NCBI GenBank assembly: GCA_028718965.1
Contig: JAQUKS010000004.1
Span: 1-44,106 of the forward strand
DNA: 44,106 nt
Reading direction: 5' to 3'
Source of the DNA: Minisyncoccota bacterium
Lineage (GTDB): Bacteria > Patescibacteriota > Minisyncoccia > Minisyncoccales > CG1-02-41-26
This document shows positions 29,149 to 34,834 of the stretch, one piece after another. A program made the position numbers and the translations under genes. A model generated the notes under the pieces. That model saw only the letters and a list, made by a program, of their open reading frames with translations. It had not been told where the DNA came from and searched no databases. Every line of letters begins with the position of its first letter. Position 1 is the stretch's first letter.

Positions 29149-29472
29149 ATGGGAATTCTAAAGCTAGAAAAAAAATATAGCGATTGCTATCCGTACATCG
29201 GCCATTACTTTAACGGACAGAAGGCAGTAAGATATATCTTCAAGTTGGAAAGATTGAATAAGCCAATTGAGGCTTCAGCTTATCACCAACAAGTTGACGG
29301 CAGGACGATAAAAGTGGCCGTTGAGATTTTTTCGATGTTTAGTCGTCCGGTTGGTTGTAAGTTTTGTGCCAGTGGTTCTCTGGGTAAGGTTCAACTTTTG
29401 ACGGTTGATGAAATAGTTGAACAGGGCAAAGTAATCGCCAAGACTGTTGACAGGTCGATTCCTATTCATTGA
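29149..29472 (+). CDS. Short radical-SAM-like fragment (RlmN-type CxFCASG region), possibly decayed
   Basis: VEIFSMFSRPVGCKFCASGSLGKVQLLTVDEIVEQGKV; only two Cys of CxxxCxxC retained. Confidence 0.45.
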   Translation: MGILKLEKKYSDCYPYIGHYFNGQKAVRYIFKLERLNKPIEASAYHQQVDGRTIKVAVEIFSMFSRPVGCKFCASGSLGKVQLLTVDEIVEQGKVIAKTVDRSIPIH

Positions 29473-29591: not shown

Positions 29592-32162
29592 ATGCCCAAG
29601 AAAACAACAGTTCTAACCGGAATCATAGTAATGACAATTTTCATTACTGTTTTTTTTGTTTTCATCTGGCAAACAAAAGGTAGCTTAAAGACCGAACTGG
29701 TTCAGGCTCAAATATCCTATCCCCAAGACGACTCAATCACCTGGCAATCCATCGGCCCTGGCGGCGGCGGCGGTTTTACGGCCCTTGCCATTGACCCCAT
29801 TGATGAAAATATTGTTTATACGGGAGGAGATTTGTCAGGAGCATTCAAATCAACTGACGGAGGAGCAAGCTGGAAGTTTATTAATAATGGTTTGGAGGAA
29901 TTTGTCATTCAGGAAATAGCCGTTGATCAAACCGACCCAAACACTCTTTATTTAGGGACTACGGGAGGTGTTTATAAAAGCACTAATAAAGGAGAAACCT
30001 GGCAGAGGAAAAGAAGCGGTTTCCCCGCGATTAGCAGTTCCACTTATTCAGCTCCGGCCAAAGCCATTGCCATTGACCCCAACAATCATAATGTCGTTTA
30101 CGTTTCCATAGCCGAGACCCATGGCAACAACTACTATTATGAAGATCGGGCTCAAAGATATAACAAGGGTCAAATTTACAAAACCACCAGCGGAGGAGAT
30201 TATTGGCAGGCCATTAACACTCCGGGGGCTAATGGTATTCCATCGGATGCCACAATTTTCGAATTGGCTGTTCGGCCAGGGGATTCCAATACTGTTTTGG
30301 CTTCAACTAACCGGGGTTTTTTCAAATCAACAGACGGGGGAGTAAATTGGACCAAGAAGTCTTTCGGGCTTCCTTATGATGATATCAGAGGCCTGGCCGT
30401 TCACCCTGCTAATCCGGATATTATTTATGTTACTGTTTGGACCCCGCAGGAACCATGGAACGGAGGAGTATTCAAATCAACTGACAATGGCGAAACTTGG
30501 GTGGCCAAGAATACGGGGTTGAAGCACAGGAATGACGGAGCGGGTAGTTTGACATCAAATTATCCCGAGGTAATTATTGACAAGAACAATCCAGAAACAA
30601 TTTTTACTGGCGATCGAAGCTGGGGCACGTATGGCGTTCAAAAAAGCACTGATGGCGGCGACACTTGGACAGGACTTATTTCTTATGATTACAGCGCTAA
30701 GAAATGGACCAATGTTGACACATTACCTTATGGAGGGGTGAATGTTTCCACAATGGCTATATCCCCAACGAACGGAAATAAATTATTTTTTGGCACTTCA
30801 ATGACGCTTTATAAAACCGAAAATCAGGGGTTAAGCTGGATGGCTAGCCATATTCAGGAGTTCGGCTCTGACACATGGAAGGGCCGCGGAGTTGAAAACA
30901 CTTGTGTCCAGAGTCTGGCGGTTAACCCAGACGACTCTAACTTGCTTTATCTTGGCTATGCGGACATATCTTTAGTGAGAAGCAAAGATGGCGGAGCGAC
31001 TTTTCATAGATCAAAGCCCGGGTTCAAAAACTGGGATGATGTTGACGCGATAGCCTTTGACCCTGATAATTCCGCTATTGTTTATGTGGGAGATAATATT
31101 TCCAGCGGCTCGGGAACGTTGCTCAAAAGCACTAATTCTGGCAATACTTGGACGATTATAGGCTCGGACAGTAATGGGCTTGCCAATGGTCAGGTTTTTG
31201 GCATAGCCATAGATCCAAAAAGCCCCCAGGCCTCAAGAATTATTTATGCCGCTGTTGTTGGCAAGGGAGTATACAAAAGCGTAAACGGAGGAACAAGCTG
31301 GTCAGTTTTTAACAGCGGGCTTAACAATGATTTTGTTGTTCGTAGTTTGGCCATTGACCCTATCAATCCCGCCACGCTTTATTTGGGCACCTGGGATAAT
31401 ATGTACAAGACCATAGACGGAGGAACAAACTGGACAATGATTGCGGGCAAGGATAAAAGAAATTTTTCGGCTGTTTACAGTATTGCCGTTGATTATAATA
31501 ATCCGAACATCGTTTACGCTACCGCCAGGCAAAGATATTTTTCGGGCGTGGGGACATTGCAAGGAGGCGTTTATAAAAGCCTTGATTCTGGGGAAACCTG
31601 GACAAAGATTTTGAGCGAGTTTTGGATTGAAGACATAGCAATGAATCCTTATGATCCGAGCATTCTTTATGCTGGCGCGCAAGCTTATAATTATTTTGAC
31701 GCTTATCGACAAAAAGGGCTTTATCGCACTAAAGATGGCGGGCAAACTTGGACTTTGATAAGCAACAATTTGCCCCACACTAATATTTCCGCCTTAGCCA
31801 TTGATAAACAGGACCCAAGAGTTATTTACATCGGCACGGGTGGGGGCGGCGTATTCAAAGGTATCGATTATTCAATTCCTCTTCCGGTTCAAAAAGCTCC
31901 GAATATTGCCATTACCATGACCGCTGACAAAACCCAGGCTTATGCCAATGAAGAAGTTGCTTATACTATAAGTTTTCAGAACATCGGAGACGGCCCGGCC
32001 CGAAACATAATCATTACTGATACGATTCCCAACGGTATGATCTATATAGCGGGTTCGGCCACTGGCGGCGGAACGCTGTCGAGTAGTACTCTTACATGGA
32101 ATGTCGTCGCTCTGGATGCGGGCGAAAGCGGTTCGGTAAGTTTTCGGGTGAGAGTGGAATAA
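29592..32162 (+). CDS. Secreted/surface BNR-repeat beta-propeller (sortilin/xyloglucanase-like) with C-terminal DUF11 domain
   Basis: N-terminal TM, many (V/F)(Y/F)KSTDGGxTW repeats, C-terminal DUF11-like ITDTIPNGMIYIAGSATGGGTLSSSTLTWNV. Confidence 0.85.
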   Translation: MPKKTTVLTGIIVMTIFITVFFVFIWQTKGSLKTELVQAQISYPQDDSITWQSIGPGGGGGFTALAIDPIDENIVYTGGDLSGAFKSTDGGASWKFINNGLEEFVIQEIAVDQTDPNTLYLGTTGGVYKSTNKGETWQRKRSGFPAISSSTYSAPAKAIAIDPNNHNVVYVSIAETHGNNYYYEDRAQRYNKGQIYKTTSGGDYWQAINTPGANGIPSDATIFELAVRPGDSNTVLASTNRGFFKSTDGGVNWTKKSFGLPYDDIRGLAVHPANPDIIYVTVWTPQEPWNGGVFKSTDNGETWVAKNTGLKHRNDGAGSLTSNYPEVIIDKNNPETIFTGDRSWGTYGVQKSTDGGDTWTGLISYDYSAKKWTNVDTLPYGGVNVSTMAISPTNGNKLFFGTSMTLYKTENQGLSWMASHIQEFGSDTWKGRGVENTCVQSLAVNPDDSNLLYLGYADISLVRSKDGGATFHRSKPGFKNWDDVDAIAFDPDNSAIVYVGDNISSGSGTLLKSTNSGNTWTIIGSDSNGLANGQVFGIAIDPKSPQASRIIYAAVVGKGVYKSVNGGTSWSVFNSGLNNDFVVRSLAIDPINPATLYLGTWDNMYKTIDGGTNWTMIAGKDKRNFSAVYSIAVDYNNPNIVYATARQRYFSGVGTLQGGVYKSLDSGETWTKILSEFWIEDIAMNPYDPSILYAGAQAYNYFDAYRQKGLYRTKDGGQTWTLISNNLPHTNISALAIDKQDPRVIYIGTGGGGVFKGIDYSIPLPVQKAPNIAITMTADKTQAYANEEVAYTISFQNIGDGPARNIIITDTIPNGMIYIAGSATGGGTLSSSTLTWNVVALDAGESGSVSFRVRVE

Positions 32163-32223: not shown

Positions 32224-32943
32224 ATGGAAAATTTCGTAAAATTCAAATTGGAGAAAAGTGACTTCAAGAACAAGCGATTTGTTATTTTATGCGTTATTTT
32301 CGTTTTTTCGTTTTTTTCTTTTGTTTTTTTGAAAAAAGCCGGGCCGATAATTCCTTATTTGAGAACAGCCCCGGTTTCGGTCGGCACGTCAATAACGAAT
32401 ACAGCCCGGGTTGTTTACGAAGACGATTCGGGCGGCAGTTACGGTCCGGTTTACTCCAACGAGGCGATTGTTTTTAAAATAGCCGCTCCGGTTTCTCCGG
32501 CGAATAAGTTCTCCATCCAGTTCTCAAAGGAAAGACAGACAAATTATCAGGAAGCAGCTACCTTAAGATTCAAAAATGCTTCCGGACAGATAGTTAGAGA
32601 AATGACCGTTTCCACGAATGTTTCGGGAAAGAGTGGCGATATCAATAACCCCGCGGAGCTAGTGAACGGCCAAAGCTATGGCTGTGTTTTAAAAGTTAGA
32701 TACCACCTGACTAAAAGAATAGATAATGTGGTCTGGCCCCCTTCGTCGTTTTTAGATTTTGGGGAGCTTTTGGCTGGCAATCTCATAGATACCGACAATA
32801 CCGTTGATTCGGCTGATTTTTCTTATCTTGGCTCGAAATGGAGGACGAACGATTCGGTGGCTGATATCAACAAAGACGGGATAGTTAATGCTATTGATTG
32901 GGGTATTATGAACAAGAATTGGCACATTACGGGCACGGAATAA
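32224..32943 (+). CDS. Membrane-anchored protein with C-terminal dockerin-like domain
   Basis: Two Ca-binding-like repeats: DTDNTVDSADFSYLGSKW and DINKDGIVNAIDWGIMNKNW; ATG 32224 preferred over TTG 32218. Confidence 0.82.
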   Translation: MENFVKFKLEKSDFKNKRFVILCVIFVFSFFSFVFLKKAGPIIPYLRTAPVSVGTSITNTARVVYEDDSGGSYGPVYSNEAIVFKIAAPVSPANKFSIQFSKERQTNYQEAATLRFKNASGQIVREMTVSTNVSGKSGDINNPAELVNGQSYGCVLKVRYHLTKRIDNVVWPPSSFLDFGELLAGNLIDTDNTVDSADFSYLGSKWRTNDSVADINKDGIVNAIDWGIMNKNWHITGTE

Positions 32944-32959
32944 AGCCACGATGACGTTT

Positions 32960-33685
32960 TCAGCCGGGAATTTTTATTTCAAAAGTTTCCCGCTCTTTCT
33001 GCCATTTGTAAAGGAGGAAAGACAGAAGAGATATGGTTATTACCGAATAAGCCGGATTTTCCGAAAAGATGAAAAGATTGAATAATCCGTGGATGATTAT
33101 CGGAACAAGCAGTGCCCTGCCCCAGAGAAATTTACGCTGTATTTTTCGGAATCTTCCCAGCGCCAAGTAATATCCCATTGCTCCCGAATAACATATTTGA
33201 GCCACTGTTGAGACGAAAAATCTTAAGGCGAACACGAAGAACACCGTATTCGTTCCGGCGTAATTTCCGACAAGCGATAAATGAAGAATATTCTCGCCCA
33301 GGGCGAATCCCAGCCCCAGACAAAGCCCGAGCTGGAGGCCGTCGGCTATCTGGTTTATCTGTTTTCCAGTTGATATTATCTTTTTCAGAATCAGAAATTT
33401 GGGAATTTCTTCCAGTGGGGCGATTAAGAAGAAGCTGAATAAGAACAGCGAAAGCGGAGCGTTAAACGCCGGAGTCTGGCGAAACTTTAAAAAATAAGAA
33501 GAAAAAGAAGGAAAAATTTCGGGGATTATTTTATTTTCCAGACCGGATAAAAGGACGAAAAGTCCCATGCCGCTAATAAAAGAAAAGAGTAGCCATCTTG
33601 AGGGAATATATCTTTTCCGCAGATAGAACCAAAACCAGAAAGCAATTGGAGCAATGGACAGTAAAACGATAAAAAGTATCTTCAT
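32960..33685 (-). CDS. PrsW-family intramembrane metalloprotease
   Basis: Multi-TM, FFLIAPLEEIPKFLIL, GFALGENILHL, IIHGLFN. Confidence 0.78.
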   Translation of the reverse strand: MKILFIVLLSIAPIAFWFWFYLRKRYIPSRWLLFSFISGMGLFVLLSGLENKIIPEIFPSFSSYFLKFRQTPAFNAPLSLFLFSFFLIAPLEEIPKFLILKKIISTGKQINQIADGLQLGLCLGLGFALGENILHLSLVGNYAGTNTVFFVFALRFFVSTVAQICYSGAMGYYLALGRFRKIQRKFLWGRALLVPIIIHGLFNLFIFSENPAYSVITISLLSFLLYKWQKERETFEIKIPG

Positions 33686-33727
33686 AGAAATTCCTTGGAC
33701 ACAGATTTATATTAACATAAAAAATAT

Positions 33728-34834
33728 ATGAAAAAGAGTGCTGCGTTTTTATTTGTTCCGGTTGTTGCGTTTCTTTTATTATTTTCGTTTTCTCCGGTTA
33801 TGGCTGACGGGGCTTCCTTGAGTGCTTCTCCCTCATCGGGGTCTTATGATCAGGACGATGTTTTTCAGGTTCAAATATTATTAAATACAGGCGGGCAACA
33901 GAGCGACGGCGTGGATATTTTTTATCTTCATTATCCGGCTGATATCTTACAGCTTCAGGACGCAGATGCCCAGGCTTCCGGCGTTCAAATTCAGCCCGGG
34001 ACGCTTTACCCGACAACTCTTTCCAATTTAGCCACCACAAGCGGCAATGACGGAAAAATTGATTTTTCGCAGATAAGCTCGGGAGGAGGGCATTACACCG
34101 GAAGCGGAATTTTAGCCACGCTTACTTTTAAGGCTATAAGAAATGGAACGGCTGGCTTGACCTTTGATCATACTTCGGGGGCTTCGGTTGATTGCAATGT
34201 CGCAGTCCAGGGGAGCGATATTTTGTCTTCGGCTACCGGCGCGTCTTTTACGGTAGCAGTGGCGTCCGTCCAGACGCCCGTCGCTCCTACGGGCGGAGGC
34301 TCTACGGGCGGAGGCTCTACGGGCGGAGGCTCCGCATCGGTGATTAATTCCACTAGTAGCAATGTAAGCGCGGGAACAACATCTACTTCTGCGGTTTCCG
34401 GCCAGGGACAAACGCCTGTTTCTCAAATGACGATTTCGCAATTACAGGCCGAGATAAGCAGAATTGTCGCTTTGATCGCACAGCTTAAAAATATGCTGTT
34501 GGCGAGCTCGGGTAGCGATTCGCTTTTATCGGAGATTCCCGCATCTTTTTCTTTTAATCGCAATTTGAAATTGGGAGCCAGGGTAACGGATGTCTTTTAT
34601 CTTCAAATAATTTTGAACTCCGACCCGGAGACAATGATTGCTCCAAGCGGAGTTGGCTCGCCCGGAAAGGAAACGAATTATTTCGGCATCAGGACATATG
34701 GCGCTTTGATAAAATTCCAGCAAAAATATTATCAGGACATCCTAAGTAAGACTTCCTCAAAAAAAGCCACCGGCATTACCGGACCGCTCACCAGAGTAAA
34801 ATTAAACCAAATTCTGGAAGACTCCCGGAATTGA
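33728..34834 (+). CDS. Secreted cohesin-like domain protein with C-terminal peptidoglycan-binding-like domain
   Basis: Signal peptide, LSASPSSGSYDQDDVFQVQILLNTGG...GILATLTFKAIRNGTAGLTF (cohesin-like), GGGST linker, LGARVTDVFYLQIILNSD...TYGALIKFQQKY...GITGPLTRVKLNQIL. Confidence 0.75.
   Translation: MKKSAAFLFVPVVAFLLLFSFSPVMADGASLSASPSSGSYDQDDVFQVQILLNTGGQQSDGVDIFYLHYPADILQLQDADAQASGVQIQPGTLYPTTLSNLATTSGNDGKIDFSQISSGGGHYTGSGILATLTFKAIRNGTAGLTFDHTSGASVDCNVAVQGSDILSSATGASFTVAVASVQTPVAPTGGGSTGGGSTGGGSASVINSTSSNVSAGTTSTSAVSGQGQTPVSQMTISQLQAEISRIVALIAQLKNMLLASSGSDSLLSEIPASFSFNRNLKLGARVTDVFYLQIILNSDPETMIAPSGVGSPGKETNYFGIRTYGALIKFQQKYYQDILSKTSSKKATGITGPLTRVKLNQILEDSRN
34291..34335 (+). repeat. Three tandem copies of a 15-bp unit (GGGCGGAGGCTCTAC) encoding a Gly/Ser/Thr linker
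   Basis: Direct reading; third copy ends TCCGC. Confidence 0.9.

Follow-up and report, generated by a model that had tools for sequence, protein, structure and literature searches.

The locus lies in a window of 44,106 nucleotides, the whole stretch of DNA analysed, which corresponds to contig C4 of a source genome that is 865 kb in size and 96% complete. On the forward strand, a gene for an 856-aa protein (29592-32162) is followed by a gene for a 239-aa protein with a predicted N-in membrane anchor and an X-dockerin (32224-32943) and, further on, by a gene for a secreted, 368-aa protein composed of a cohesin, a linker and a wall-type module (33728-34834). A gene for a PrsW-family intramembrane protease (32960-33685; PF13367, E=2e-25) lies between the two partners on the reverse strand. 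The dockerin and cohesin reading frames were both found at the positions given in the preliminary description. Downstream of the cohesin gene are two large ORFs, one of 1076 aa and one of 1218 aa, taken from their sequences to be rpoB and rpoC. A 107-aa ORF at 29149-29472, which looks like a gene remnant, has a weak match (E=8e-5) to RlmN/Cfr radical-SAM methyltransferases, in their N-terminal part. No family was found in an Rfam search, the counts from a promoter and terminator scan were no better than chance, and a search of viral contigs and phage records gave no match.

The cohesin protein begins with a signal peptide (33728-33805, forward strand), recognized in the sequence by its hydrophobic segment and ending in SFSPVMA before DG. 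The cohesin domain (33806-34249) and a GGGST and Ser/Thr-rich linker (34274-34414; GGGSTGGGSTGGGS) follow on the same strand. The Pfam cohesin model (PF00963) matched the protein with an E of 1.5e-4 and 22.4 bits against a cut-off of 24.1, and the genome scan gave 25.2 bits, above that cut-off. The Pfam Dockerin_1 model (PF00404) matched the 239-aa protein with an E of 0.0019 and 18.8 bits (cut-off 22.9) when hmmscan was used; the genome scan gave 22.1 bits, and 31.5 bits with neighbors in frame. Because Pfam scored both partners only marginally, lineage profiles were built from 41 cohesins and 27 dockerins of relatives, with the window pair left out of both. The window cohesin matched its window-free profile with an E of 1.2e-25 and the window dockerin matched the other with an E of 2.8e-10. 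The best PDB matches of the cohesin profile were solved cohesins (best 1e-4), and the dockerin profile matched solved cellulosomal dockerins (1.7e-12).

The AF2 model of the cohesin domain, made with 42 aligned sequences (pLDDT 84, pTM 0.80), has the nine-stranded jelly-roll fold of cohesins. Foldseek returned 46 PDB matches for this model at E<=1e-3, nearly all of which were cohesin or cellulosomal-scaffoldin chains, with TM values up to 0.75. The matches of the whole cohesin protein to the PDB were mostly GS-linker antibodies and were discarded as an artefact caused by the linker.

The 239-aa protein carries a Lys/Arg-rich N-tail and a hydrophobic anchor (32278-32331, forward strand; FVILCVIFVFSFFSFVFL), which has no obvious signal-peptidase site. 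An N-terminal hydrophobic anchor is also present in the related proteins of loci L136-L138, described below. The X-like beta-sandwich module (32506-32769, forward strand) was modeled by AF2 with a pLDDT of 92 and aligns with the corresponding modules of X-dockerins of known structure. The dockerin (32785-32922, forward strand) consists of two Ca-loop/helix repeats and was recognized by the lineage profile, AF2 and Foldseek. The AF2 model of residues 89-239 had a pLDDT of 92 and a pTM of 0.84, with the F-helices of the two repeats at model positions 108-116 and 135-143. Loop 2 (DINKDGIVNAID) is canonical, and loop 1 (NLIDTDNTVDSAD) is a variant, N-L-I-D-T-D-N-T-V-D-S-A-D, with N/D at the Ca-coordinating equivalents and a one-residue insertion that is subtype-wide and common to L136-L138. 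Asp or Asn fills Ca positions 1, 3, 5, 9, and 12 of both loops, in loop 1 by equivalent positions.

In Foldseek, each of the ten best PDB matches of the X-dockerin model was an X-dockerin chain from a type II complex; the alignments spanned the full length, with TM values up to 0.74 and less than 20% identity. Because the model matches these chains, the window dockerin is better read as a type II-like X-dockerin than as a plain type I dockerin. The preliminary description had proposed a duplicated dockerin repeat at the C-terminus of one protein and a cohesin-like domain on the other, secreted protein, and both are borne out; its type I label is better replaced, with an X-like module preceding the dockerin. 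Since the AF2 models of the two domains resemble cohesins and X-dockerins of known structure, respectively, the identity of the two domains is, at the level of predicted structure, more than chance.

Scanned with the window-free profiles, the genome contains one cohesin and two dockerins. The second dockerin, on a 203-aa secreted protein of contig C2, scored 37 bits with Pfam and is itself a row of the lineage dockerin profile. Among 120 related genomes, 54 have a cohesin and 51 a dockerin; both are present in 48 genomes, only a cohesin in 6, only a dockerin in 3 and neither in 63 (Fisher p=5e-23; this and the following p-values ignore kinship between genomes). The corresponding counts for the 70 genomes that do not belong to the set supplying profile rows were 23, 4, 2, and 41 (p=2e-12), and the Pfam models alone gave p=0.002 for co-occurrence in 40 genomes. 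A cohesin was <=3 kb away for 61 of the 71 dockerins, with a median gap of 118 bp. In 33 of the 34 loci examined, the two genes share a strand and the dockerin lies upstream of the cohesin; the remaining locus is a single ORF with both domains. Almost half of the genomes surveyed contain such dockerin-first clusters, which can be divided into partner subtypes. Judged by sequence, the window pair is a diverged member of this cluster, which recurs in the order and in which the dockerin gene comes immediately before the cohesin genes.

Distances among dockerins were correlated with the distances among their adjacent cohesins (Mantel r=0.66, reached by 0 of 5000 permutations). Comparison of loci within one genome removes the effect of species relatedness. 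The loci of G003 and of G016 belong to different subtypes, and r was 0.74-0.83 with a dockerin's own partner and -0.29 to 0.14 when partners were crossed. In G075, which has two loci of similar subtypes, own and crossed r were alike, about 0.75. Cognate, subtype-specific pairs would be expected to produce this pattern. The co-conservation in related genomes for which the preliminary description had asked is strong and includes adjacency, fixed order and partner co-variation.

The clusters at L064, L066, L067, L070, and L071 contain a ~310-aa protein of the form GISPLTFEL...NPGD, a secreted dockerin protein and then two to four cohesin proteins, which have a C-terminal transmembrane segment and a tail. 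Dockerin proteins that end in TTWGAIK or TWGKIK and have no nearby cohesin are encoded at L005:8313-8924 (G000, contig C2), L072:278-1627 (G002), and L079:2101-3420 (G017). They form a second kind of dockerin protein, and their common tail after the dockerin possibly serves for sorting or anchoring. A dockerin-cohesin protein with a FlgD-like C-terminus (L062:1748-2581; G001, contig C62) adjoins an IS3-type transposase, is unlike the rest of the order and possibly represents contamination or transfer.

An X-dockerin scan of genome contigs detected three named loci, L136 (JAGGTM010000036.1; AUK048), L137 (MNWF01000025.1; Parcubacteria CG1_02_40_25), and L138 (MHJU01000003.1; Ca. Jacksonbacteria). 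With one of these relatives of the dockerin protein labeled Parcubacteria and another Ca. Jacksonbacteria, the window probably comes from Patescibacteria of the Parcubacteria type. All three have an anchored X-dockerin gene and then a small anchored cohesin gene, which is absent from the window, where the PrsW gene occupies its place. The next gene in L136 and L137 encodes a long secreted protein with an N-terminal cohesin, and these two loci hold relatives of both window partners; a third cohesin of this kind was not found in L138. Identity to the window cohesin was 54% in L136, 45% in L137, and 48% in G026. The larger cohesin protein contains FN3 and other repeats in L136 and L137, whereas that of the window contains the PG_binding_1-like module. 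The dockerin proteins of the named relatives have FN3, cohesin or no other recognized domain, and no enzymes.

Because the PrsW gene interrupts the pair, the dockerin and cohesin genes of the window are not one operon. The window PrsW is an accessory paralog, with a second PrsW encoded elsewhere in the genome. A PrsW gene lies upstream of the cohesin-dockerin locus in L136 as well, and only the window and L136 have PrsW at such a locus. The window PrsW groups with the L136 copy and with an additional PrsW of G061 and is separate from the PrsW copies of the other genomes sampled. The members of this accessory clade are window 32960-33685, L136:711-1697 and L149:585-1487, of which two of the three are at cohesin-dockerin loci. 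The G061 gene follows groEL and is not near cohesins; for this reason, a functional link between PrsW and the cohesin-dockerin pair is treated as a lead. PrsW was rejected as a general partner, being present in 107 of the 120 genomes, mostly as a single copy away from cohesin clusters.

The C-terminal part of the cohesin protein (34415-34816, forward strand; residues 230-363) is a coiled coil plus a PG_binding_1-like module, assigned by the match of its family to PF01471. The window module alone fell below the cut-off for PF01471 (E=0.03-0.29); all 28 aligned members of the module family matched PF01471 (best 1e-7), and a search of the PDB gave a match to a peptidoglycan-binding/hydrolysing protein (5tv7) with an E of 0.003. 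The GGGST linker and C-terminal PG_binding_1-like domain named in the preliminary description are both present. The family was detected in 117 of the 120 related genomes, in many cases on ORFs of very large size, and in the shorter proteins examined the module sits after FN3 and other ectodomains. In the relatives L082-L110, the coiled coil and module are N- or C-terminal on large surface proteins. By these sequence comparisons, the module is a candidate for a general wall or S-layer anchor of the order and is probably the wall anchor of the window cohesin protein. Among the cohesin proteins fetched, only that of the window joins a cohesin to the wall module, and most of the complete ones have a C-terminal transmembrane segment instead; the dockerin proteins fetched have only an N-terminal hydrophobic segment. 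Because the cohesin plus wall-module architecture was seen in the window alone, the exact membrane-wall bridge is not conserved.

The 856-aa protein is a GH74-xyloglucanase-like double beta-propeller with a DUF11 domain. Residues 47-757 align with GH74 xyloglucanases (E=1e-19), and Asp residues align with the two positions that we presume to be catalytic in GH74. The protein was searched for a dockerin, a cohesin and the wall module and none was found; it has no full-length relative in the 120 related genomes and is absent from L136-L138. The suggestion that the pair tethers this protein is unsupported because the protein lacks all three modules and a full-length relative. The protein was perhaps horizontally acquired. 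Its DUF11 domain (31908-32159) stops at profile position 84 of 114, and a segment of the dockerin protein after the membrane anchor (32377-32490) scores as the missing end. The joined DUF11 scored 71.6 bits with the window segment and 71.0 bits with a segment from L137, vs. 61.4 bits alone and 64.2 bits with another segment. The idea that one gene was split into the 856-aa and dockerin proteins was rejected: the same kind of ending is seen in a DUF11 protein of G022, and the L137 segment completes the domain equally well. DUF11 half-domains may be a separate module type.

It is likely, from their sequences and those of their relatives, that the window cohesin and dockerin bind each other. Somewhat less firmly, we think it probable that the pair is a non-cellulosomal, Ca2+-dependent clasp of the cell envelope that both binds and tethers. 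Its topology, wall attachment, Ca2+ dependence, binding and biological role are inferred as follows. The N-terminal anchor would keep the X-dockerin protein in the cytoplasmic membrane, so that the X-module and dockerin lie outside. The cohesin protein would be exported via its signal peptide and fixed to the wall by the coiled coil and PG_binding_1-like module at its C-terminus. The cohesin at its N-terminus, carried on the flexible linker, would clamp the Ca2+-loaded dockerin. The outcome would be a non-covalent, Ca2+-dependent bridge from membrane to wall. More tentatively, and leaning slightly against it, we consider a broader reading in which the order generally uses cohesin-dockerin pairing to assemble its envelope and the window pair is a reversed-polarity, Ca2+-dependent membrane-to-wall or S-layer rivet, possibly trimmed by a dedicated PrsW.

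With two dockerins vs. one cohesin in the genome, and with the C2 dockerin a genuine one, the wall-displayed cohesin might serve mainly the C2 protein or proteins of other cells, rather than the adjacent X-dockerin. We regard this as unlikely, as the C2 dockerin is far from any cohesin and has a different tail (...TTWGAIKGRP), co-variation is seen between adjacent partners across the lineage, and the loci L136 and L137 each hold relatives of the two window partners. A clasp that links two cells, either episymbiont to host or sister cells, and not the layers of one envelope, is quite improbable. The dockerin protein SEML1_0315, which is essential in the epibiont Southlakia epibionticum, has been speculated to target host glycans (PMC10633639), but no feature of the locus studied here suggests a host ligand. 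A single genome encodes the two partners and they are conserved together, which fits self-assembly.

Slightly less probable again is a small, cellulosome-like degradative complex that displays the GH74-like protein or other enzymes. The GH74 similarity of the 856-aa protein over its full length, together with the Asp residues aligned at the presumed catalytic positions, favors such a complex, and Shapirobacterales cohesin/dockerin genes, seen as transcripts, were interpreted as a cellulosome (PMC9123182). However, neither dockerin protein has an enzyme domain, neither a dockerin nor a cohesin is present in the GH74-like protein, and the dockerin proteins of the named relatives are likewise free of enzymes. 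With its single cohesin, the nearly complete genome has no multi-cohesin scaffoldin and no dockerin-bearing enzyme. Least probable of all is that the dockerin is a Ca-binding structural domain with no cohesin partner and that the two are neighbors merely as surface-protein domains; dockerin-like EF repeats also occur in organisms that have no cohesin and 10 of the 71 dockerin matches have no nearby cohesin, but the two domains co-occur, adjoin in a fixed gene order and co-vary as partners, in the within-genome control as well, which argues against it.

Cohesin-dockerin pairs are familiar chiefly from bacteria that digest cellulose. The clasp proposed here resembles the clostridial type II cohesin/X-dockerin pair (PDB 2b59, 3kcp, 4fl4, 5g5d, 4u3s), in which, as in the window, the X-module and dockerin form one unit. 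The cohesin fold is also in common, and the clostridial pair is used for cell-surface attachment. Unlike clostridial cellulosomes, the window pair comes with no enzymes and no scaffoldin of repeated cohesins. The polarity also looks reversed relative to clostridial anchoring scaffoldins, the window dockerin being predicted to be membrane-anchored and the cohesin being probably wall-bound.

Non-cellulosomal cohesin and dockerin modules were reportedly treated by Peer et al. in 2009. Such modules occur in ANME archaea, Archaeoglobus and Omnitrophota, where their function is unclear (PMC9012536, PMC10066038). They are likewise outside cellulose degradation; in contrast to them, the modules studied here form a recurrent, adjacent pair with fixed order and co-variation and, in the window, a fusion to a wall module. 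The Shapirobacterales and Southlakia reports concern the same superphylum and domains as the window but are single passing mentions without analysis of a cluster, a partner or an X-dockerin. No paper was found that contains both "cohesin domain" and "Parcubacteria"; subscription papers were outside the scope of this search, so priority is uncertain.

The short, strongly conserved, dockerin-first pair can be expressed and studied in vitro and provides a handle on how the streamlined CPR bacteria build and anchor their surface and how they attach to hosts. The clusters would yield many new candidate cohesin-dockerin pairs of differing specificity. Scattered dockerin and cohesin annotations in CPR genomes, such as that of the essential dockerin protein in Southlakia epibionticum, would be read less as "cellulosome" or "glycan binding" components and more as protein-protein clasps. 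Cohesin-dockerin pairing is probably a way in which related ultrasmall bacteria assemble their cell surface.
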